Position numbers and translations under genes: made by a program. From IMG/VR virus record IMGVR_UViG_3300027708_000022, positions 98,043 to 162,042 of that record: a DNA stretch of 64,000 nt. One strand, written 5' to 3'. Positions 1 to 64,000 of this stretch are shown in pieces. The notes beneath the pieces are model-generated. The model did no database searches. It saw only the letters and a program-made list of their open reading frames with translations, and was not told the origin of the DNA. The stretch comes from a virus. The first letter of the stretch is position 1. Each line of letters starts with the position of its first letter.

Positions 1-258
1 TGCACGGAAGAAATAGGCTAACACTAGCATACCAACAATGACTAGCACAACCTTACCAATAACTAACCATTTCTCAATTGGATCAGGAGTATGGTGACTT
101 TCTATAACTTTATATTCATCTGACATATTACTTCCCTTTAATTGTTTTAATACCTGATGGTCAATATACTTGGCTATCTCTTTTGATTTCTCAGTTAATA
201 CTCTCTCCGGTCTCATAGGCGGACAGGTATGTACTTTATTACACCGTGGGCATATCAT
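1..258 (-). CDS. Small zinc-knuckle/membrane protein, 3' end off window
   Basis: The reading frame stays open from an ATG at 258 to the window edge (86 codons), so the C terminus is missing. It begins with a CPRC...C pattern, like half of a zinc ribbon, continues with a charged helix, and ends in one hydrophobic segment rich in Val, Ile and Leu (about residues 64-84) followed by Phe-Phe-Arg. The ATG at 258 is preceded by GAGGG at good spacing. A second in-frame ATG at 126 also has a strong AAGGGA ribosome site, so a short form holding only the membrane segment may be made. The start overlaps the upstream gene by 20 nt. Function unknown. Confidence 0.6.
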   Translation of the reverse strand, partial: MICPRCNKVHTCPPMRPERVLTEKSKEIAKYIDHQVLKQLKGSNMSDEYKVIESHHTPDPIEKWLVIGKVVLVIVGMLVLAYFFRA

Positions 259-448
259 TTATTCCCTCTATCCATGCTCGGATAATCTTACCATCATGTC
301 TAATTACTCTATTCTCTACCCACTCCATATACCCAACTTTAGGGTCATTTGAATTGCTAGGACGATATTCATGGCATTCTTTACGCTCAACTTTCAATAA
401 CTTAGGTCGGCGTAGGGTTTTCTTAATTACTCTGATTGGTCTCATCAT
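239..448 (-). CDS. Hypothetical small basic protein
   Basis: A 69-residue protein, basic in the N-terminal third (Arg/Lys-rich) and mixed after that; no known motif recognised. The ATG at 448 is preceded by GGAAT. It overlaps both neighbours (26 nt with the gene at 423-764, 20 nt with the gene at 1-258), as expected for an early phage operon of small genes. The residues MEWVENRVIRHDGKI suggest a compact beta-rich fold, but this is inference. Confidence 0.55.
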   Translation of the reverse strand: MMRPIRVIKKTLRRPKLLKVERKECHEYRPSNSNDPKVGYMEWVENRVIRHDGKIIRAWIEGINDMPTV

Positions 449-764
449 TTATATTCCTAATCATTTCTGCATATTCTTTTTTAAGTATACTGGCATAGGC
501 ATTGTCTAGCTCATACTTACCATACTTTTGTTCTGATAATACTCTAATAAGTAAATCTTGCTCTCTTACTCTGGATTCCAATTCTTTCAGTCGGTTCTGA
601 GCGGCCTCAGCCTTTTTGTGTGATTCATAATCTCTTTTAATATATGGGTGTAGTGATAGCATACTATTGCACAAGGTATTCTGTTCTTTGAAATGGTCAC
701 GCTGCTTCTGTAGCTTTAATATCTTTTTCTTCAGTCGGCCTATGGTTACAGATTCTTCAGTCAT
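423..764 (-). CDS. Hypothetical coiled-coil protein
   Basis: 113 residues, highly charged, with heptad-like spacing of Leu/Ile through most of the length (LKKKILKLQKQRDHFKEQN, RLKELESRVREQDLLIRVL). A long coiled coil is therefore likely. No enzymatic motif was seen. It sits in the run of small genes at the left of the window and its 3' end overlaps the next gene by 26 nt. The role is unknown; such proteins are common in the early regions of T4-like phages. Confidence 0.6.
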   Translation of the reverse strand: MTEESVTIGRLKKKILKLQKQRDHFKEQNTLCNSMLSLHPYIKRDYESHKKAEAAQNRLKELESRVREQDLLIRVLSEQKYGKYELDNAYASILKKEYAEMIRNINDETNQSN

Positions 765-772
765 TTCGTCAC

Positions 773-1015
773 CTAATCAAGAATGTAAACAGGTATTGCG
801 CCATACTCATCGGAGTCGCACGTTAAAAATCCGTCTAGCACATCACCCTCGCTAGTTGTGCGCCGACCAATCCACGCAACAGGATTCAACTCTTTCAACT
901 CACGGGCTGCGTCGAGTGCTACAGTGTGGCGTAATTTTGTTAAACCCATAATGCTTGTGTCGTTTGTATGATGAGCAGACTCAAGAGCATCAATAATCAG
1001 ATCAAGTTTGTTCAT
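773..1015 (-). CDS. Hypothetical protein, phage-mosaic type
   Basis: 80 residues with an N-terminal helix (MNKLDLIIDALESA), then ARELKELNPVAWIG and a beta-rich acidic tail. Short proteins starting this way recur in unrelated phages of Gram-negative hosts; that is a recollection of the family type, not a search result. The DNA is visibly richer in G and C than the surrounding genes, suggesting recent acquisition. Function unknown. Confidence 0.6.
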   Translation of the reverse strand: MNKLDLIIDALESAHHTNDTSIMGLTKLRHTVALDAARELKELNPVAWIGRRTTSEGDVLDGFLTCDSDEYGAIPVYILD

Positions 1016-1109
1016 TTACTATCTCCACCGGTGGTAATTGTTCTCTCTGACTCTTGATATTGTCCATTATACCTTTCACCTCACCTCTGATTGGGTTATC
1101 ATGTGGCAT
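1002..1109 (-). CDS. Possible 35-residue ORF
   Basis: An ATG at 1109 opens a frame that ends at a TGA at 1002-1004 and overlaps the start of the 80-residue gene by 14 nt. The product would begin MPHDNPIRGEVKG and be rich in charged residues. There is no clear ribosome site before the ATG and no recognised family, so the gap 1016-1156 may instead be non-coding. Reported because it fills an otherwise empty gap in a region where genes abut. Confidence 0.25.
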   Translation of the reverse strand: MPHDNPIRGEVKGIMDNIKSQREQLPPVEIVNEQT

Positions 1110-1156
1110 ATAGCAATATATTCTATTCAATAGTCTTAATAGGTTGTTCGGATCCA

Positions 1157-1435
1157 TCAGTCATTGTCACATATATCTTTTGAATTTTTTGTTCTATTAG
1201 CGGCTCTTGCTCTGATTGCATTTGCACAATACCAAGCACCATCTGCGCCGCTAACATCATCACCCACAAGCCCTTCTGCCTCGTCCTCGCAAACTCTAGC
1301 ACAAGCCTCACGCTCATCCTGTCTGATTAACTCAGTAAATCGTGTTAGGTTTAATGTCCCCGACATGAAACACCCCCAGTCTTCCGACCAAACGCCACCC
1401 GCTTGCACCGCTAACTCTTTTAATCGTTCGTTCAT
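1157..1435 (-). CDS. Hypothetical protein with Cys/Ala-rich helical core
   Basis: 92 residues. The N-terminal part (LKELAVQAGGVW) is followed by ELIRQDEREACARVCE, a motif I associate with a widespread family of short phage proteins of unknown role. Like its neighbour at 773-1015 it has higher G+C than the rest of the window. The ATG lies 3 nt inside the end of the membrane-protein gene upstream (1432-1641), so the two are probably co-translated. Confidence 0.6.
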   Translation of the reverse strand: MNERLKELAVQAGGVWSEDWGCFMSGTLNLTRFTELIRQDEREACARVCEDEAEGLVGDDVSGADGAWYCANAIRARAANRTKNSKDICDND

Positions 1436-1641
1436 TTTTTATCTCTCAATTTACCAATAAACCCTAGATTCTTACCGCATTGACGGCATATCGCATCACA
1501 GGCCTGTGTCTCATTATACCCACCGTCATGCTTACACCTTGATTCTTTGTACCATTGTATAACACTAATGATTGTAATTGTGGCAATAGCTAATACTATT
1601 GCCAACACAGTCAATATATCACCAATTGTATAGATAAACAT
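1432..1641 (-). CDS. Small membrane protein with zinc-binding tail
   Basis: 69 residues. A hydrophobic segment of about 25 residues near the N terminus (LTVLAIVLAIATITIISVIQW) predicts one membrane span. The rest carries Cys and His in the pattern C-x-H...C...C-x2-C (ACDAICRQCGK), typical of a small zinc-binding module exposed on one side of the membrane. Its ATG overlaps the stop of the upstream zinc protein gene (TAATG). No enzymatic function is evident. Confidence 0.65.
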   Translation of the reverse strand: MFIYTIGDILTVLAIVLAIATITIISVIQWYKESRCKHDGGYNETQACDAICRQCGKNLGFIGKLRDKK

Positions 1642-1817
1642 TAGTATATACTCCCCTCTTGATTAGGTTCATTACTATTGGTACACTCAAGCTTATGGTC
1701 GGTGGCCTTTGGGCATCGTTTGTTCCCGCAGGTCGGACAGAGGCGCATACGCATAGTGAATGGTTTAAATGCAGTTAATGGTGTGCAAGTATGGCACCAA
1801 CATTCAAGTTGTTTCAT
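1641..1817 (-). CDS. 58-residue zinc-ribbon phage protein
   Basis: The frame starts at ATG 1817 and stops at TAA 1641-1643. It encodes 58 residues with WCHTC near the N terminus and CPTCGNKRCPKAT in the middle, i.e. repeated CxxC knuckles, followed by H-x-L-x-C and a TNSNEPNQ tail. This combination is a familiar short protein of phages of Gram-negative bacteria; the function is not known. Start and stop overlap both neighbours (ATGA and TAATG), which supports it being a real gene. Confidence 0.75.
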   Translation of the reverse strand: MKQLECWCHTCTPLTAFKPFTMRMRLCPTCGNKRCPKATDHKLECTNSNEPNQEGSIY

Positions 1818-2077
1818 AATAAATCTCCAACGATGTTACTATATTTTTTAAGTTTCTCTAGTTTACGGGACATGGCCAGTTCTATGCCTGTCTCAGATAT
1901 AAACCCTTGTTGCTCCAATAATACCACAATGCATAGCATATCACCAATCTCCTGTTCAAGGTCTAATCGGTTATTACCATTATCACCAAACCTACGGTAT
2001 TTGGATACTGCCTGAATTACCTCGGCACATTCTTCCTGCAATATACCGAGGGTCTCCATTAATTTGTTATCACTCAT
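1814..2077 (-). CDS. MazG-like nucleotide pyrophosphohydrolase
   Basis: 87 residues, close to the minimal size of the all-alpha NTP pyrophosphohydrolase fold. The sequence shows LQEECAEVIQ followed by LEQEIGDML, matching the ExxE...ExxD metal-binding pattern of MazG-type enzymes, which hydrolyse NTPs or dNTPs to monophosphates. In phages they are thought to modulate host nucleotide signalling or clean the nucleotide pool. A second protein of this fold is at 44441-44797. The stop overlaps the next ATG (ATGA). Confidence 0.75.
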   Translation of the reverse strand: MSDNKLMETLGILQEECAEVIQAVSKYRRFGDNGNNRLDLEQEIGDMLCIVVLLEQQGFISETGIELAMSRKLEKLKKYSNIVGDLL

Positions 2078-2235
2078 TTAATATTACACACAGCCCGAAT
2101 CTCTGATGCATCAAAACCTGCCATCATACCGGCAACGGTGCATTTATATTGAGTTTGAGTATGATACGCCGCAACACCAATCATCATAGCAATAAATAAT
2201 AGGCCTGTGATACAGGCTAAAATTCCTTCTTTCAT
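2074..2235 (-). CDS. 53-residue membrane-anchored protein
   Basis: ATG at 2235 to TGA at 2074-2076. The first 25 residues form a hydrophobic helix (ILACITGLLFIAMMIGVAAY); the remainder is short and polar with two cysteines (YKCTVAG, VCNIK), probably periplasmic. It overlaps both flanking genes by 4 nt, which is why I accept it despite its size. No family recognised. Confidence 0.6.
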   Translation of the reverse strand: MKEGILACITGLLFIAMMIGVAAYHTQTQYKCTVAGMMAGFDASEIRAVCNIK

Positions 2236-2624
2236 TTTACTTCTCCATTGTTAATATCATTTTTTAAATCGTAAATCTGCCATGCACCAGCATTTTTAAG
2301 CATTATACTAGTTGGTGCAACACCCATGCCGGCATTTGGATCCATGCCATTACTATTAAAGGGTGTGGTCGGCATATGAGGCGGTAATGTCTGTGAAGCT
2401 GACGCTTTGTGTACCTTACTTTTGTGTTTGATTATCTGTATCAATTCATTGATTTGGTTGAGGTCAGGTCTATCTTTATATGACCCGAGATAGAACCCTT
2501 CAATATTTTCCACCCCACGCAATTGTATGGGATCACTCACATAAACATATTCATTCGGGTTGTATCCCATCTTATCAATATGGTGGTTATATTCATGCCG
2601 ATTACCAGCAACAACGAATTTCAT
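2232..2624 (-). CDS. Hypothetical protein with Rossmann-like N terminus
   Basis: 130 residues. It begins MKFVVAGNRHEY and includes YVYVSDPIQLRGV and IEGFYLGSYKDRPDLNQI, an alternating beta-alpha pattern like a small nucleotide-binding or deacetylase-like fold, but no P-loop is present. The C-terminal third is Pro/Asn/Gly-rich and probably flexible. It lies inside a string of ATGA-overlapping genes. Function not recognised. Confidence 0.6.
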   Translation of the reverse strand: MKFVVAGNRHEYNHHIDKMGYNPNEYVYVSDPIQLRGVENIEGFYLGSYKDRPDLNQINELIQIIKHKSKVHKASASQTLPPHMPTTPFNSNGMDPNAGMGVAPTSIMLKNAGAWQIYDLKNDINNGEVK

Positions 2625-2887
2625 TCTTTATCCTCTATGCATTTCATATATTCCCGCTGCTCAAATTTCTGCTCTTGCATGGTCTTTTCACCCCAAGCCT
2701 TGCGAGGGTTCATGCAAGCAATACAATTTTTATTACCACAACCAAACATAGAACGCTTTGCATACTTGTGTGGATTGTCTACCACATTATCATAACCATA
2801 GGCCTTGGCTATCTTTACCTTTCTTACCACTTTCTTGGACTTTTGCTGTAAACGCTCTGAATGCTTGAGTTTATCATCTGTACTCAT
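2621..2887 (-). CDS. Conserved phage protein with GCGNxxCxxCxNPRK motif
   Basis: 88 residues, strongly basic. The central motif CGNKNCIACMNPRKAWGEKT, with three or four cysteines, is one I recognise from short proteins in many phages and in prophage-like regions; it probably binds zinc. An acidic-basic helical tail (MQEQKFEQREYMK) follows. Biochemical role unknown. It overlaps both neighbours by 4 nt. Confidence 0.65.
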   Translation of the reverse strand: MSTDDKLKHSERLQQKSKKVVRKVKIAKAYGYDNVVDNPHKYAKRSMFGCGNKNCIACMNPRKAWGEKTMQEQKFEQREYMKCIEDKE

Positions 2888-3066
2888 TTCTTAATCAATC
2901 TCTCTATCATTCTTTGTGTTTTACTAACCAATTGGCCACCATGTAATTGGTAGGCTAATATTTCAATTAAATCAACTGAATTAATTTCACCATCATAATC
3001 ATCATCAAACCATTTTTGAATCTTGTATAAACCATTTTCTTGTGTAATTTTGTATCTAACATTCAT
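2884..3066 (-). CDS. Hypothetical 60-residue protein
   Basis: Starts MNVRYKITQENGLYKIQKWFDDDYDGEI and ends in a basic helix. Aromatic residues and short beta-strand-like blocks suggest a small compact domain; no motif recognised. It overlaps the 2OG oxygenase gene upstream by 4 nt and the gene downstream by 4 nt, so it belongs to the same polycistronic unit. Confidence 0.5.
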   Translation of the reverse strand: MNVRYKITQENGLYKIQKWFDDDYDGEINSVDLIEILAYQLHGGQLVSKTQRMIERLIKK

Positions 3067-3680
3067 GATTTTAGCTCCGTAAGTTCACCTGTGTTACCAA
3101 TATCACCACGAATAAAGGTATTGAAGGCAAGGCTAGTTCTAAGGTTTTTGCCTTCTTTTTGTTCAACCATATGCTGCAGCTCAGATGGAAACATAACAAG
3201 GGCACCTGTACCGACAGGGAACCACCATGATTCTGAATTGTATAGATTCCATGTGGCTATATCAGGTTTGATTCTTTTGTATGCATCGGAACTATAGAAC
3301 ATGATCTTGTCTTTGTCCTTATTAGAATCAAGGTACAATACACCTGAGACCAGACTATTTGGGTGTGCATGGCGATGGTGGTATTCACCAGGTTTTGTGT
3401 AATTGATCCATGATTGTGTGATATATGGTTTAACCTTATCTTTCACACACATAATATTGGTATAATATTCGGTAACATATTCATCCAATACCTTTTTGAT
3501 ATTAGCCATCACAGGTTGATTCAAAATGTAAGTATCAACTGTGTTAACATTACCATTATTCTTTACAGTCTTGGATTGTTGTTGTTTAAAGAACGCCAGT
3601 TCTTCTTTAGTGTATGCTCGACCCATTTCACCAAACATAACAGGTGTCGGGAATAGGCCATGTACGATTGGTGTAATCAT
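3063..3680 (-). CDS. 2-oxoglutarate/Fe(II) oxygenase, TIGR02466-like
   Basis: 205 residues. The order of elements matches the phage 2OG-Fe(II) oxygenase family: FPTPV near the N terminus, then HHRHAHPNSLVSGVLYLD (about residues 101-118, carrying the first metal ligands), a late His in ELQHMV (about 170), and RTSLAFN (Arg about 181) for 2-oxoglutarate binding. Such enzymes hydroxylate or otherwise oxidise a protein, nucleic acid or small molecule using O2; the substrate is unknown. It is one of three oxygenases of this superfamily in the window (also 23319-24098 and 40747-41298). Confidence 0.75.
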   Translation of the reverse strand: MITPIVHGLFPTPVMFGEMGRAYTKEELAFFKQQQSKTVKNNGNVNTVDTYILNQPVMANIKKVLDEYVTEYYTNIMCVKDKVKPYITQSWINYTKPGEYHHRHAHPNSLVSGVLYLDSNKDKDKIMFYSSDAYKRIKPDIATWNLYNSESWWFPVGTGALVMFPSELQHMVEQKEGKNLRTSLAFNTFIRGDIGNTGELTELKS

Positions 3681-3961
3681 ATAAGTTTCTCTAATCTAAG
3701 TGTTTTGACTTGATTATCGGGTAGAACAAAGGCTCTTGCTCTGAATGATGCTGTACCTGAAAGTATATCTTCAGATTTAGTAAACTCAACGAGTTTGAGC
3801 TCAATCATAGCTTCAGCTATTTTATGTGCAAGTCTTTGTTTGATTTCATTTTCGGTCATGGTTCGACCAATTGTATCATAGTCACGAAGTTCCCATTGGC
3901 AAACTAAGGCCTTGCCGATGAGGTCAAACGATTTGATTTCTATTTGAGGGAGGTTGTTCAT
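3677..3961 (-). CDS. Hypothetical protein
   Basis: 94 residues with alternating strand and helix blocks (IEIKSFDLIGKALVCQWELRDYD; a central helix LAHKIAEAMIEL). No recognised family. It is the first gene of a transcription unit: an unusual sigma70-like promoter lies at 3982-4013, immediately upstream, and genes follow with 4-nt overlaps down to the left end of the window. Confidence 0.55.
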   Translation of the reverse strand: MNNLPQIEIKSFDLIGKALVCQWELRDYDTIGRTMTENEIKQRLAHKIAEAMIELKLVEFTKSEDILSGTASFRARAFVLPDNQVKTLRLEKLI

Positions 3962-3981
3962 AATATAGTCCTAATGTCACC

Positions 3982-4013
3982 AGTATATCATAGTCTATAA
4001 AAACTTGCGGCAA
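3982..4013 (-). promoter_or_regulatory. Promoter of the TTGCC(A/G)-N20-TATAAT group
   Basis: On the minus strand TTGCCG (4013-4008) is followed after exactly 20 nt by TATACT (3987-3982), preceded by TGA and followed by GG. Three other promoters in the window (43833, 47499, 52519) share the same boxes and the same 20-nt distance. It lies at the 3' end of the 3995-4609 gene and precedes the 94-residue gene. Confidence 0.65.
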
Positions 4014-4609
4014 GGATGAAAGAACATTGCCACAAATTTCTTACCGTCTTTAGATGCAGCATCTAATTTGTACCCAATGTTGATTACTACCGCACGATCA
4101 ATTGTATAGAACCATTTCATCTTGTACCACCAACCAATCTGGCCTTTTGAATTGGTTACTTTCCAAAAACTAGAGTGACTAGTCTTAGTACCCCATAATT
4201 CATTGTTATCTCTTGCAACCAAATATACCATGTCGTTTGAATCATAACCAAGGCTCTGACCGAACCCATATGCAGGGTTGCGACACAACCATAATATACG
4301 ATAGGCATAACGCACCAACCAATTTGTATCATAATCATACCTGCGTAGGAATTTTATTACACCACTCTGAAGTTCATAGTCGGCATAGTACATTTCATCA
4401 GCAGGTGCATCCGGTGTACTGAACCCTTTGAATATAGGCAATAGAAAGTCTCTCTTGAGGCCTGGATGTAATGATGGGAAACCTGTAACTTCTGATTCTT
4501 CTGCCTTGTATGTAAACAAAGCGATGATAGGTGAAAATACAATTGTCACCAGATCCAATAATAATAGTGCAGGCACCTTCAGTACCCATAATAGGATAGA
4601 TAATAACAT
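3995..4609 (-). CDS. Membrane-anchored DUF7338-like phage protein
   Basis: 204 residues. The first 35 form a long hydrophobic region (LLSILLWVLKVPALLLLDLVTIVFSPIIALF), probably one or two membrane spans. A soluble domain rich in Trp and Tyr follows, with a typical tail (QIGWWYKMKW, VVINIGYKLD). This layout matches a protein family found in many phages of Gram-negative hosts (DUF7338-like by recollection); the function is unknown. It is the last gene before a terminator hairpin on the upstream side. Confidence 0.6.
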   Translation of the reverse strand: MLLSILLWVLKVPALLLLDLVTIVFSPIIALFTYKAEESEVTGFPSLHPGLKRDFLLPIFKGFSTPDAPADEMYYADYELQSGVIKFLRRYDYDTNWLVRYAYRILWLCRNPAYGFGQSLGYDSNDMVYLVARDNNELWGTKTSHSSFWKVTNSKGQIGWWYKMKWFYTIDRAVVINIGYKLDAASKDGKKFVAMFFHPCRKFL

Positions 4610-4667
4610 TTTTTATTCCTTTTCTTGGATTATACTATTGTTCCATTACTTATAGTGGTAATGGTAC

Positions 4668-4690
4668 AAACCCACCAGAAAGGTGGGTTT
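4668..4690. terminator. Intrinsic terminator-like hairpin
   Basis: A perfect 9-bp inverted repeat (4668-4676 with 4682-4690, AAACCCACC/GGTGGGTTT) around a 5-nt loop lies just after the stop of the gene at 4706-4924. The stem is GC-rich in an otherwise AT-rich region. The T run on the minus strand is short (TTT), so termination may be partial. Confidence 0.6.
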
Positions 4691-4705
4691 ATTTGAGACA
4701 ATTGC

Positions 4706-4924
4706 CTATACTGACAATTCTTCTTGTGGATCTTTTGAGGTCACAAAATTGACATACTCTACTGCATCATCTTCCTCTGTAAAATACCGAACGATGGTCT
4801 GTCCGGTATATAATGAGGTGAACAACAATAAAATATTACAATTTCGATATACGGAAAACTTAATAGCCCACCCGTTGCGGGATACAGGGCTAAAACTTTT
4901 TGATTTAGCCTTTATTTCCAACAT
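4706..4924 (-). CDS. Hypothetical protein
   Basis: The likely start is the ATG at 4924, giving 72 residues beginning MLEIKAKSKSF; an in-frame ATG at 4990 would add 22 residues but would lie deep inside the upstream gene. The product has beta-strand-like blocks (WAIKFSVYRN, TIVRYFTEEDDAVEYVNFV) resembling a small alpha/beta domain. Its 5' end overlaps the phasin-like gene by 20 nt. It is followed by a terminator hairpin at 4668-4690. Function unknown. Confidence 0.5.
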   Translation of the reverse strand: MLEIKAKSKSFSPVSRNGWAIKFSVYRNCNILLLFTSLYTGQTIVRYFTEEDDAVEYVNFVTSKDPQEELSV

Positions 4925-5162
4925 AAGCAAATGACTTGAGTTTTCCGGTTTTGACGATTTCTTTTGCATTTTCGCTACATTCTTTAACAATATCTATTAC
5001 CTTACTGGTGTATGTAGTAAATGTAGAATTTGTAAGTTGGTCAAATGATTTGATGTTGGACACCTGAAATGCTTCAATAGTATTTAATACTGATTCAGCA
5101 TATGATTTAATTTTGGCGTCAAATTGACTGACCATTGATTGTGGGTTAAACATATTAAACAT
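4905..5162 (-). CDS. Phasin-like protein
   Basis: 85 residues, almost entirely amphipathic helix, beginning MFNMFNPQSM and continuing with AKIKSYAESVLNTIEAFQ, SFDQLTNSTFTTYTSKVIDIVKEC and AKEIVKTGKLKSF. The N-terminal pattern and the repeated Phe/Ser/Thr helices resemble small phasins, which coat polyhydroxyalkanoate granules. If correct, the phage may act on host carbon-storage granules or use the protein as a DNA- or membrane-associated chaperone. The match is by pattern only and other helical proteins could look similar. Confidence 0.45.
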   Translation of the reverse strand: MFNMFNPQSMVSQFDAKIKSYAESVLNTIEAFQVSNIKSFDQLTNSTFTTYTSKVIDIVKECSENAKEIVKTGKLKSFAYVGNKG

Positions 5163-5163
5163 A

Positions 5164-5259
5164 TTATTTTCCTGTTTTAGTGTAGTATTCGATTCGTTGC
5201 AATCTGGCTTCTACGATTGCTGTAAATAGAACGGTGAAATATTTTGAAATTGTTTGCAT
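5164..5259 (-). CDS. 31-residue ORF upstream of the phasin-like gene
   Basis: The frame from ATG 5259 to TAA 5164-5166 encodes MQTISKYFTVLFTAIVEAR and a short basic, Tyr-rich tail. TTAGGA lies at good distance upstream of the ATG. It sits between two genes with no spare sequence, and its stop is 2 nt from the start of the phasin-like gene. Short proteins like this are common beside phasin-like genes in phages I have seen, but I cannot name a family. Confidence 0.45.
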   Translation of the reverse strand: MQTISKYFTVLFTAIVEARLQRIEYYTKTGK

Positions 5260-5267
5260 GGCTATTC

Positions 5268-5399
5268 CTAATTAAATTTGGTTTGCGTATAGATTCTCAT
5301 TAAATTCTCAACTTCTGAAATAGTCTGAGGATTATTCTTTAGAATAAATGCCTCAAACTGACACTTTGGTTTTAAATAAGATAAAAGTTTCTTAATCAT
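5268..5399 (-). CDS. 43-residue ORF
   Basis: ATG 5399 to TAG 5268-5270, with an AAGGA ribosome site 6 nt before the start. The product begins MIKKLLSYLKPKCQFEAFI and contains NNPQTISEVENLMRIY, resembling the short DUF3563-type proteins (Lys-Pro-x-x-x-Phe-Glu-x-Phe, then a helical tail). It is the first minus-strand gene left of the plus-strand homing endonuclease. A TATAAT box at about 5461-5466 may drive it, but the -35 region is weak. Confidence 0.5.
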   Translation of the reverse strand: MIKKLLSYLKPKCQFEAFILKNNPQTISEVENLMRIYTQTKFN

Positions 5400-5512
5400 A
5401 AATTGTCCTTACTAAGTATTTTAATAGGTATCGTTTGTACTAATACTTTTATTTAGACAATATTATACTGCAAACGCACATTTTTTTAGGTATATTTGAA
5501 ATTAACAACTGT

Positions 5513-5520
5513 TATAAATA
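5513..5520 (+). promoter_or_regulatory. T4-type late promoter TATAAATA
   Basis: A perfect match to the T4 late promoter, on the plus strand, 58 nt before the ATG of the GIY-YIG gene at 5579. The gp55 sigma factor that would read it is encoded at 62049-62642. The second plus-strand homing gene has the same element at 45902-45909. Confidence 0.75.
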
Positions 5521-5578
5521 GGTGTAGGTCACCGAGCTGTAACTCGTACCTACTCTAACATTGTAAAGGAATGCCAGC
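5521..5578 (+). ncRNA. Structured leader of the GIY-YIG gene (copy A)
   Basis: The leader folds into a 6-bp outer stem (5524-5529 with 5548-5553), a CAC bulge on the 5' side (5530-5532), a 4-bp inner stem (5533-5536 with 5543-5546), a 6-nt loop CTGTAA, and a single T bulge (5547), followed by TCTAACATT. Copy B at 45911-45969 has the same layout with different bases in both stems: six base pairs change on both sides. The ribosome site AAGGA follows at 5566-5570. This is good evidence for a selected RNA structure controlling expression. Confidence 0.7.
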
Positions 5579-6205
5579 ATGAATATTTATAAATCGCCAA
5601 CACAGCGACAAATTGACAATTTCAAACCAACATTTTTATACTTAAAACGCCATAAGGATACTAAACTTTATTATTTTGGAAAAACTGCTACATCCGATCC
5701 TGTAAAATACAACGGTTCTGGTAAATATTGGAAAAACCATTTGAAAAAATATGGCAAAAATATTGAAACTGTTTGGTACCAGAAATTTTACGACATACAG
5801 AAGTTAATTGGTTTTGCTTCAGCGTTTTCAGAAATTTTTGATATATCAAATTCAGAATTGTTTGCAAATTTATGTGAAGAAAATGGTTTAGATGGTGGAG
5901 ATCCAGGTAAAGCCGCATCAAAAAAAACTAGTCTTGCTCTGAAAGGCAGAAAACAGCCTCAATCTAGTATAGATAAACGAAAGAAAACCCTTTCAGAGAA
6001 TCCTATCATTTTTACAGAAAGTCGTAAACAAAAAATATCAAAATCTTTAACTGGTAAAAAATTATCACAAAAACACATTGAAGCTATGAAACTTGGTTCA
6101 AAAACTGAAAAAAGCGTAGAATCTAGGAAACTTAATTTTGACAGAACCGGTAAAATACCTTGGAATAAAGGTATTAAAACCGGTAATAAAAACTTAATCT
6201 CCTAA
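5579..6205 (+). CDS. GIY-YIG homing endonuclease (Seg-like) with NUMOD3 repeats
   Basis: 208 residues, one of two complete genes on the plus strand. The N-terminal GIY-YIG nuclease domain is divergent: FLYLKRH...YYFGKT stands for GIY...YIG, followed by YNGSGKYWKNHLKKYG. The C-terminal half holds basic DNA-binding modules of the NUMOD3 type (RKQKISKSLTGKKLSQKH, GKIPWNKGIKTGN). Homing endonucleases of this kind cut related phage genomes and are copied into the break. It has its own late promoter and structured leader, and its 3' end overlaps the convergent phoH gene by 12 nt. Confidence 0.85.
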   Translation: MNIYKSPTQRQIDNFKPTFLYLKRHKDTKLYYFGKTATSDPVKYNGSGKYWKNHLKKYGKNIETVWYQKFYDIQKLIGFASAFSEIFDISNSELFANLCEENGLDGGDPGKAASKKTSLALKGRKQPQSSIDKRKKTLSENPIIFTESRKQKISKSLTGKKLSQKHIEAMKLGSKTEKSVESRKLNFDRTGKIPWNKGIKTGNKNLIS

Positions 6206-6937
6206 TTTTTCGCAAGCTATAATCCAAGATTTAACCAATGAAGATCGGCAGATATCTTCAGGAGTAAAATGAATCCTACTGAATTCAGGCATGGTTTCAG
6301 CAACCCTAAGAAAATCACCTAATCCGGAAATATCGTGTTTATTCTTAATTAGATCATTTTGTTTTGTGTCACCACAGAAAATTATCTTGGATCTGTAACC
6401 AACTCTAGTCACAATAGAAGATAACTCGTGGAATGTCATTGATTGACATTCATCAACTACTACAATAGCATCATCAAAAGTACAACCTCTAAGAAAACTT
6501 GTACTTACAAATTGAATAAAATCCTGTTCACAAAGTCTCTGGTAAGCATCTTTGCGACCAAATAGAGTTTCGCAAATTTGGTGATAAGGTTGTTCATATA
6601 AACTCATCTTATCTTCGACCGATCCTGGAGTAAATCCCATGTCTCGGCCTTGAACAGCTGACCGCACAATGATAACCTTTTTGAAAGGATTGGACTTATC
6701 CAATACTTCTTCTAAAGCTTTGTATAAAGCAATAAAAGATTTACCCACACCAGCTGATCCTGACAACATCATAAAGTAGTCTTGTCTCTTGTATGCATCA
6801 AAAAATAGTTTCTGATTCTCAGTCAATGGGTCAAATGTCTTTAGGTCATCTATCCTGATCTTCAGTTGTGTACCAGGTCGTGGTGTTGTAGGTTTAGGTT
6901 CTACAAAGGTGTCGGTTGTTTGCTGCTTTCTGGCCAT
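6194..6937 (-). CDS. phoH: PhoH-family ATPase
   Basis: 248 residues from the ATG at 6937 (an in-frame start at 6985 would extend into the upstream gene). A Walker A motif GSAGVGKSF and a Walker B motif VVVDECQS are present, with the PhoH hallmarks VIIVRSAVQGRDMGFTPG and FCGDTKQND. PhoH is an RNA-helicase-like ATPase common in marine and freshwater T4-like phages. Its phage role is not settled; links to phosphate stress or RNA turnover have been proposed. Its start overlaps the preceding GIY-YIG gene by 37 nt. Confidence 0.9.
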   Translation of the reverse strand: MARKQQTTDTFVEPKPTTPRPGTQLKIRIDDLKTFDPLTENQKLFFDAYKRQDYFMMLSGSAGVGKSFIALYKALEEVLDKSNPFKKVIIVRSAVQGRDMGFTPGSVEDKMSLYEQPYHQICETLFGRKDAYQRLCEQDFIQFVSTSFLRGCTFDDAIVVVDECQSMTFHELSSIVTRVGYRSKIIFCGDTKQNDLIKNKHDISGLGDFLRVAETMPEFSRIHFTPEDICRSSLVKSWIIACEKLGD

Positions 6938-7347
6938 TTTAGTTTTCCTAATACATGGGTTTTGTGAATCTTGCAAGTTACCCAAGAGTTATAATACTGG
7001 TCACTCAATAGGGCGTGCCTGTTAAAAATCTCAAATGTTTCTAAATAATTACATTCGGATCTAGTCTTACAAAGGTGTAGTATCTCTCTAGTAAATTTGT
7101 CCTCTCCTTCATGTTTAACTTCTGCTTGCAATTCTGTATTGCTTCCCCAATACTCTAGCCAATCACTGGCCTTCCGTACCTTTTTCTTTTTACCCTTGAT
7201 TTGACGATAACCAGCCTTAGTGAACAATTTCTTGCCCACATACCGTTTACCTGTTTGAATATTGGTGATAAGATACACATAGCCAATGTTATCGGCTATG
7301 TGTTCTTCTTTGAATTCTTCTGCTGTATTATGATAAAACCAAGTCAA
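6901..7347 (-). CDS. GIY-YIG nuclease-domain protein, resident type
   Basis: 148 residues. VYLITNIQTGKRYVGKK is a clear GIY-YIG core, followed by a lysine-rich insert and DWLEYWGSN, then a conserved Glu region (NYLETFEIF). It lacks NUMOD repeats. Unlike the two homing enzymes it lies on the minus strand in the middle of an operon, and proteins of this form recur next to phoH in T4-like aquatic phages. It may be a domesticated repair or restriction-like nuclease rather than a mobile one. Confidence 0.75.
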   Translation of the reverse strand: MTWFYHNTAEEFKEEHIADNIGYVYLITNIQTGKRYVGKKLFTKAGYRQIKGKKKKVRKASDWLEYWGSNTELQAEVKHEGEDKFTREILHLCKTRSECNYLETFEIFNRHALLSDQYYNSWVTCKIHKTHVLGKLKWPESSKQPTPL

Positions 7348-45910: not shown

Positions 45911-45969
45911 GGTGCTAGTCACGATGCTACCAACATCTACTAGCTCTAACATTAAACAGGAATGTCAGC
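45911..45969 (+). ncRNA. Structured leader of the GIY-YIG gene (copy B)
   Basis: 6-bp outer stem (45914-45919 with 45939-45944), CAC bulge (45920-45922), 4-bp inner stem (45923-45926 with 45934-45937), 7-nt loop CTACCAA, single T bulge (45938), then TCTAACATT. Copy A at 5521-5578 has the same parts with six compensatory pair changes. Unpaired parts GGTG, CAC, T and TCTAACATT are identical in the two copies, and the ribosome site CAGGAATG follows. Confidence 0.7.
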
Positions 45970-46641
45970 ATGAATATATATACTCCCCGCCTAATCTACT
46001 ACGTCTATGCCTATCTCAGACCAGATGGCACACCTTACTACATCGGTAAAGGTAAAGATAACAGAGCTTGGCAAAAATCTAAAGGTCATATCCCACCTAA
46101 TGATAACACAAGAATAATAATAATAGAGGCAAACTTAACCGAACTCGGAGCTTTTGCTCTTGAACGTAGAATGATTAAATGGTATGGTCGTAAGGATATT
46201 GGTACAGGTATTTTAAGAAATAAAACTGATGGAGGAGATGGCACCAGTGGTTACAAACAAACTGCCGATCACACTAATAAGATTAGATCCGCATTAATTG
46301 GAAGACCTAGTAAATATAAAGGAATTTTAAGACCAAGAACTGGACCATCAATTTCCAAAACAAAATTTGCTGCTAATAAAAAATATTCTACAGAAGAACG
46401 AAATAATGTGAGTATAGGAACAAAATTGGCTATGAGTGATTCAACTATAAAAACTAAATGTGCTGCCCCACATATAAGAGAGTGGATAATTACACTACCA
46501 ACTGACATAGAAATAAAAATCAAAAATCTAAATCAATTTTGTAGGGATAATAATCTAAATATTGCCACGATAAAGTCTGCTGCTAGAAATGGATGGAGAA
46601 CTTCATCGGGATACAGAGTGAGAAAAGTTAAATCTCTATAA
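45970..46641 (+). CDS. GIY-YIG homing endonuclease
   Basis: 223 residues. [20 protein letters not shown] is a canonical GIY-YIG core, with [13 protein letters not shown] supplying the Glu region. The C-terminal half carries NUMOD-like basic modules ([15 protein letters not shown]) and a DNA-binding helix-turn-helix-like end ([24 protein letters not shown], shown in parts: [17 protein letters not shown]). It is the second complete plus-strand gene; the nuclease domains of the two are not close relatives although their leaders are alike. Its 3' end overlaps the convergent phosphoesterase gene by 14 nt. Confidence 0.85.
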
Positions 46642-62812: not shown

Positions 62813-63217
62813 TTAGTGTAATGTTCTCTTCTTAGTACCCTGTTGATACTCCTCCAACTCTGCATATGCAGCTTCTTCTTCCTCTTCAGTAAGTTCTTCA
62901 TCATCATCTACCTCATCATCACTGGCATACATATCTTCTTCAACCTCAACCACGGTAGTATTGTAGTATTCAATGATATGTGGTTTTGGTTCAAACACAG
63001 CTAAAACATCCAATGAGAATATTCTTGCAGATGTATTCTCAACTATCTCCAATGGAATCCAAGGACTCATCATCATAACAGATTTGCCTGATGATAGTCT
63101 TTTAAATATCAATGACATTGGGTTGTTTAGAATAACCGAACTATCGCTATCATCCGAGGTATAATCAGCAATGATATCTTCACCGCTTTGTAGTCTTACA
63201 ATTTTTATATTATCCAT
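62813..63217 (-). CDS. Sm-like protein, paralog 2, with acidic tail
   Basis: 134 residues. IKIVRLQSGEDIIADYTSD, NPMSLIFKRL and MMMSPWIPLE resemble the plan of the 43839-44156 protein. After about residue 95 comes an acidic tail (VEEDMYASDDEVDDDEELTEEEEEAA in pieces) that may bind a basic partner. It overlaps the uvsW fragment by 8 nt. Confidence 0.6.
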   Translation of the reverse strand: MDNIKIVRLQSGEDIIADYTSDDSDSSVILNNPMSLIFKRLSSGKSVMMMSPWIPLEIVENTSARIFSLDVLAVFEPKPHIIEYYNTTVVEVEEDMYASDDEVDDDEELTEEEEEAAYAELEEYQQGTKKRTLH

Positions 63218-63908
63218 TTGCCAACTTTATAGGGTAAAATTTATAGTTAAACTTCTCTTCATCATATAGCTTAACTCTTTCTATTAAGTGTTTGATTGTG
63301 TAGTTGGTAAATTTACCAATTCTAAAGTCATCAGATATATCAAACAAAACTGCTTCTTCTTTATTATCACCTAACCTCAAACCTCGCCCAATGGATTGTA
63401 AATTGCGAATCTTAGATTTAGAGGGACTTGCAAATACAATATTGTGTAGGTTTCGTATGTTGACTCCAGTTGAGAAAGTGCCATAAGAAGCCACGATAAT
63501 AGCATCTTTTTCTTTTTCAGTAATAGAACGGATAGATTCACGGACTTCAACATCGGTACCTCCGTATACAAAAAATACTTGTCTATTCTTGGTGTGTTGT
63601 TTGATTAGTGCGTGTAAATCTCTACCATGTTTTTCTACAAACTGAAATAATATAAGAGTATTACCTTTCAATGATAAAGTTAAATTCTTAATGAATTCGT
63701 TTCTAGCAGGATTCATAACTATATATTCTACTTCTTGATTGTAGTCCCAATCTTTAGCCATCTTACAAATGGTATCAGGGTATTTCAGTATCAAACATTT
63801 AATTCTAAACGCTGCCAGTTGACCCTTTTCAATCAATTCTGCCGTTGATGTGGCCTTGTAAACTGGACCAAATAGTCCTTCTAACACCAATCTATGAACA
63901 TTACTCAT
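63210..63908 (-). CDS. uvsW: UvsW helicase, C-terminal part
   Basis: 232 residues, against nearly 590 in T4. The start MSNVHRLVLEGLFGPVYKA matches the stretch just after motif III of UvsW, so the N-terminal RecA-like domain with Walker A/B is missing from this frame. Motifs IV-VI are complete: GNTLILFQFVEKHG, VASYGTFSTGVN and IGRGLRLGDN. Upstream a second ORF, homing-endonuclease-like, ends 2 nt inside this start. The gene is therefore split by an inserted element, an intron, or a mobile-gene insertion. Confidence 0.8.
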   Translation of the reverse strand: MSNVHRLVLEGLFGPVYKATSTAELIEKGQLAAFRIKCLILKYPDTICKMAKDWDYNQEVEYIVMNPARNEFIKNLTLSLKGNTLILFQFVEKHGRDLHALIKQHTKNRQVFFVYGGTDVEVRESIRSITEKEKDAIIVASYGTFSTGVNIRNLHNIVFASPSKSKIRNLQSIGRGLRLGDNKEEAVLFDISDDFRIGKFTNYTIKHLIERVKLYDEEKFNYKFYPIKLANG

Positions 63909-64000
63909 TTTTTTCCATAATATTTTTTAACATTTGTTGTCGTCTTTTTTCTATCAATAATAAAGATTTTTCTTTACCTAAAAGTTCTTCGTATGTTTTG
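63901..64000 (-). CDS. 3' end of a homing-endonuclease-like ORF inside uvsW
   Basis: One frame is open from the window edge to a TAA at 63901-63903. It encodes KTYEELLGKEKSLLLIEKRRQQ and a basic tail; the K-T-Y-E-E-x-x-G-x-E-K pattern is the NUMOD-type motif of HNH and GIY-YIG homing endonucleases. The stop lies inside the start of the uvsW C-terminal gene. The 5' part is outside the window. Confidence 0.6.
   Translation of the reverse strand, partial: KTYEELLGKEKSLLLIEKRRQQMLKNIMEKNE

Follow-up and report, generated by a model that had tools for sequence, protein, structure and literature searches.

In T4-like phages, the gene uvsW codes for a helicase acting in recombination and repair. 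In the environmental T4-like phage studied here, it is very probably broken into two cistrons, uvsW-N and uvsW-C, by insertion of a free-standing HNH gene of the MobE family, which lies between them; the inserted gene would spread by homing, and UvsW would be assembled from two separately made pieces. The insertion and its borders, the empty alleles in two lineages, a transfer with its tract, and the selection acting on uvsW-C can all be read from the sequences.

The right edge of the window (the whole stretch of 64,000 nucleotides analysed, record positions 98043-162042) coincides with the end of a 162,042-b virus record, and the N-terminal part of uvsW is therefore not visible from the window alone. 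The locus was completed using the opposite end of the record and related contigs. Its features are listed below, with window positions given unless another sequence is named.

63210-63908, minus strand: uvsW-C, the RecA2 half of UvsW, 232 aa (UvsW structure match, Pfam, dN/dS)
63901-63908, minus strand: 8-nt overlap ATGAGTAA, with the HNH stop codon TAA inside the uvsW-C start (direct reading)
63901-64000, minus strand: 3' end of the predicted HNH (MobE-family) homing endonuclease gene, truncated where the record stops
63908-63914, minus strand: run of seven A residues just ahead of and into the uvsW-C start
record 4831-5493 (locus L006), minus strand: full copy of the HNH gene, 220 aa
record 5529-6302, minus strand: uvsW-N, 257 aa, ending in TGTLAN and a stop, immediately preceding the full HNH gene
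record 4838-4143, minus strand: copy of uvsW-C at the complete locus of the record's left end
L006:3595-4146, plus strand (also G001:C1:89956-90504): GIY-YIG-like ORF, with a related protein near window 45940-46299

The frame at 63210-63908 was originally predicted to be the part of uvsW beyond motif III, and it does match residues 273-501 of T4 UvsW (2OCA, E 1.9e-38) as well as Pfam Helicase_C. It begins MSNVHRLVLEGLFG, with its own ATG where the codons for DGTQT stood and four residues ahead of HRLVLEG. The HNH ORF enters from the window edge and ends in KTYEELLGKEKSLLLIEKRRQQMLKNIMEKNE and a stop; KTYEELLGKEK lies near its end, followed by a terminal KNE. The overlap of its stop codon with the uvsW-C start, noted originally, is indeed present (context GAAAAAAATGAGTAATG) and likely gives translational coupling of the two cistrons. 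An N-terminal part of uvsW had also been expected nearby, and there is one: uvsW-N contains UvsW_N and DEAD/ResIII (Pfam), and matches residues 10-262 of 1RIF/2OCA. Across the two halves, the UvsW_N domain and both RecA-like domains of a UvsW (SF2) helicase are present; the motifs SPTASGKS, DEAH, TGTL, and QSIGRGLR are found in the translations, and the split point lies between the two RecA-like domains.

The record, IMGVR_UViG_3300027708_000022, is evidently chimeric, its first ~5.2 kb belonging to one phage (phage A) and the rest to another (phage B, the phage of the window). Positions 1-5178 are 100% identical to contig IMGVR_UViG_3300010158_000028 (phage A, L008/G001), while past position 5178, the HNH gene aside, the record and the phage A contig are far less alike. 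The genes at record positions 1-4930 are similar to those of the window (68-80% identity) and stand in nearly the same order, and the uvsW locus is complete there. The chimeric join falls within the near-identical HNH gene common to A and B. A true duplication of gp46-gp47-gp55-uvsW within one genome was considered but discarded, since the left copy matches phage A at 100%. Contigs L102 and L103, in which uvsW is uninterrupted, track the record from 10312 to 5541 at 93%, and then from 161938 to 157855 at 94-96%; this jump shows that the two ends of the record belong to a single locus of the actual genome. By this evidence, the true B locus runs from the uvsW-C of the window through HNH to the uvsW-N of the record, an arrangement pieced from two ends of one chimeric record, with the join supported by L102 and L103. 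Once the duplicated A-derived end is taken off (162042-4930), the genome of phage B would be about 157.1 kb long. Phage A contains a cytidylyltransferase-like gene between gp47 and gp55 (L006:2033-2515, minus strand), which the window phage does not have at that place.

The insert is 711 nt long in A as in B, and stands in place of precisely 15 nt, GATGGTACACARACA, the conserved DGTQT codons that follow motif III. In the direction of uvsW, it is preceded by ACATTA (T-L of motif III) and followed by CATAGA (H-R). At its upstream end, uvsW-N acquires two new codons and a TAA, after which a 35-nt gap leads to the HNH ATG, with CATAAATA sitting 5 nt ahead of this ATG.

The ORF between the uvsW halves, described in the original prediction as homing-endonuclease-like, is on homology grounds predicted to code for an HNH homing endonuclease. 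The protein matches the homing endonuclease family phrog_655 (1.6e-37) and T4 MobE (33% over 189 aa, 4e-24), a homology that places it in the MobE family; the HNH motif HHIIP..GG....N..LTAREHF..H is present, and Pfam HNH and NUMOD3 traces were seen below cut-off only. In B, a strong perfect hairpin, TACTCGGACAATGTCCGAGTA (L006:5427-5451, -16.5 kcal/mol, z -5.1), lies within the first HNH codons, and two of the four A/B differences in the gene fall within the hairpin and weaken it in A. An internal terminator like that of T4 mobE is not claimed, because the terminator-like call at the hairpin is on the opposite strand, and because T4 mobE itself gave no terminator in the same scan. The sequence NATAAATA is depleted in the phage B part of the record (34 occurrences versus about 97 expected). 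Yet for the 170 ORFs of B that begin with ATG and span 100 aa or more, it occurs 16 times in the 60 nt ahead of the start, and many ORFs, virion genes among them, have it upstream. Since it is rare overall yet frequent upstream of ORFs, it may be a T4-type late promoter motif; that it acts for the HNH gene is offered as a suggestion only.

Phages A and B are collinear and about 71% identical over the 39.6 kb that can be aligned. Their HNH genes differ at four out of 660 nt (99.4% identity), and exact runs of 40 nt or more shared by A and B were observed at the uvsW/HNH locus only. Split in A and B, uvsW is whole in every close relative of either half that could be evaluated, with empty alleles, i.e., uninterrupted uvsW, in L100-L104 of lineage B and in L192-L198 of lineage A. 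Degenerate-pattern scans of viral contigs for other uvsW splits at the same point returned phage A contigs only. As judged from these comparisons, the insert has spread recently between two different phage lineages.

The DNA that flanks the insert carries the marks of a transfer in which break repair co-converted one side only. In the upstream uvsW region, phage A is 93-100% identical to L192 from about 1260 nt upstream until 780 nt before the uvsW-N stop. From there on it resembles lineage B, most 60-nt bins being 95-100% identical to L101 and three being lower (72-87%), and it reverts to its own lineage directly after HNH. The ~780 nt of lineage B uvsW on the 5' side in phage A are, by the look of these identities, a typical homing conversion tract. 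Over the final ~50 coding positions ahead of the insert, A and B are near-identical but share only about two-thirds identity with the empty alleles of lineage B, as would be expected of flanking DNA that travelled together with the element. Past the 3' border, A and B follow their respective lineages almost at once. Transfer from lineage B to lineage A is the most economical direction.

Two further observations were made around the insert. A stretch of about 240 nt in the B uvsW-N (L006:5649-5888) reaches no more than 62-78% identity to any of A, L101, and L192, and looks as though derived from a third lineage. Directly downstream of the phage A uvsW-C, on the opposite strand, lies the GIY-YIG-like ORF (YVYAYLRDNNLPYYIGKG, weak NUMOD3). 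Because this ORF is absent in seven close relatives, phage A seems to have two endonuclease insertions around uvsW-C.

The original prediction had left a choice between a group I intron and a two-gene split; the latter stands, while the former is very unlikely. A self-splicing intron, of group I or another type, that contained the endonuclease ORF and restored the uvsW frame on splicing would suit an insert located within a conserved coding segment, and HNH endonucleases of this type are often intron-encoded (PMC2988022). However, an intron core (P3-P7), sought beyond the window with Rfam in E-value mode over record positions 3500-7000, gave no match at E<=5, while the T4 nrdB group I intron, used as a control, was detected in the same mode at 2.7e-6. 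Only the E-value mode counts here, because the gathering mode misses the T4 nrdB control too. The 220-codon ORF takes up almost all of the 711-nt insert and so leaves no space for an intron core outside it, and the invariant DGTQT codons are missing from both flanks, so that excision cannot restore an uninterrupted uvsW. Fractured genes, reportedly described by Dassa et al. in 2009, in a paper listed in PMC10448857, and mostly from phages, are said to combine split inteins with an endonuclease gene placed between the halves of a gene for a DNA-repair enzyme. The uvsW locus, whose halves lie on either side of a free-standing endonuclease gene, has just this layout, and UvsW halves joined by protein trans-splicing would be its consequence. 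Unlike those genes, the uvsW halves are without intein fragments: uvsW-N stops two residues past motif III, uvsW-C starts four residues before HRLVLEG, and neither piece has intein residues. The original exclusion of an intein fusion was thus correct, and the probability of a split intein is negligible.

The chimeric nature of the record, with its first 5178 b being 100% phage A, could suggest that the whole arrangement is an assembly artefact. Such an artefact accounts for the duplicated end of the record, but not for the insertion. The phage A locus is also present in three further contigs, L007, L009, and L013, and the order uvsW-N, short gap, HNH gene, uvsW-C is continuous in L007 and L008 and partial in L009 and L013; the B junction is independently backed by L102 and L103. 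We consider an artefact extremely improbable. More serious, though still unlikely, is the view that the insertion killed uvsW and that the halves are decaying pseudogene remnants in a phage that lives without UvsW. The insert removed five conserved codons, and uvsW is single-copy in each genome (the chimeric duplicate set aside). Yet both halves are open in two lineages, without stops or frameshifts, and uvsW-C has gained a start codon. In addition, dN/dS of uvsW-C versus intact relatives is about 0.03 (0.027-0.034 for the B copy versus L101-L103), a value that spans the time both before and after insertion and that indicates strong purifying selection on this half. A very recent insertion could nevertheless leave the same picture of open, conserved halves. 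For uvsW-N, which includes recombined stretches, dN/dS is higher, about 0.19.

A variation on the separate translation of the halves is suggested by contig L009, which has six A residues in place of the seven-A run. There, HNH is fused in frame to uvsW-C over 458 codons (L009:149-1525), and the contig encodes exactly an HNH-UvsW-C fusion as one frame; the one-A deletion may be either a real variant or a sequencing error. Slippage of ribosomes or transcripts on the seven-A run could, besides the separate halves, yield such a nuclease-helicase fusion, which we regard as distinctly unlikely. If it did occur, a selfish gene would supply the start of a hybrid recombination enzyme.

According to the reading that we favor, insertion of a free-standing homing endonuclease gene, the HNH gene has entered uvsW between the RecA-like motor domains, replacing the 15 nt of the DGTQT codons. 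During mixed infection, the endonuclease would nick or cut an uninterrupted uvsW in its conserved motif-III region, and repair would copy the insert, together with neighboring uvsW DNA, into the recipient. Alleles that already hold the insert lack the target codons and would for that reason escape cutting. The halves would be translated separately, uvsW-C being coupled to HNH, and the pieces would associate into a working helicase. We infer this assembly by analogy with the ribonucleotide reductase of Aeromonas phage Aeh1, whose nrdA is split by mobE and whose two-piece enzyme is fully functional (PMC2988022). Indirect support comes from the purifying selection on uvsW-C and from a break that falls between domains; of T4 UvsW, the N-terminal 282 residues have been solved as a separate chain (1RIF).

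A core gene split by an endonuclease gene, whole in relatives and with no intron or intein to rejoin the pieces, makes uvsW/HNH a well-supported additional case of genes in pieces, with an unusually clear homing footprint. As in Aeh1 nrdA/mobE, a MobE-family HNH gene, without intron or intein, occupies a conserved site of a core gene and leaves two ORFs. Unlike in Aeh1, the host gene is that of the helicase UvsW rather than nrdA, the function of the split enzyme is predicted from sequence, and transfer between lineages as well as empty alleles are directly seen. The T4 topoisomerase gene 60/39 with mobA, and gene 43A/43B of Aeromonas phage 25 (PMC2988022), likewise code for a core replication enzyme in two pieces at a free-standing endonuclease gene, but the host genes are others and the gene 43 split is not clearly caused by the endonuclease. 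T4 segE, a free-standing homing endonuclease gene targeting uvsW (PMC2988022), differs from the HNH gene in that it is of the GIY-YIG type, is located between inh and uvsW, and leaves uvsW unsplit. The uvsW and uvsW.1 genes of T4-like phages were described as a two-gene uvsW (PMC1524935; PMC6486255); uvsW.1, however, is an ORF of its own (~76 aa) that follows the helicase and involves no endonuclease gene, whereas the break reported here is between RecA1 and RecA2. A literature search, short on subscription journals, revealed no report of a helicase, or of uvsW, split at a homing endonuclease gene.

NrdA, topoisomerase, and DNA polymerase make up the short list of phage enzymes known to be broken at such a gene. 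The present analysis also flags a 162-kb public virus record as chimeric. With both lineages offering occupied as well as empty alleles, and with the conversion tract mapped, the locus cleanly documents homing as it occurs naturally among uncultured phages. Since UvsW is a recombination and repair helicase, an element that would spread by break repair has split an enzyme of its own pathway.
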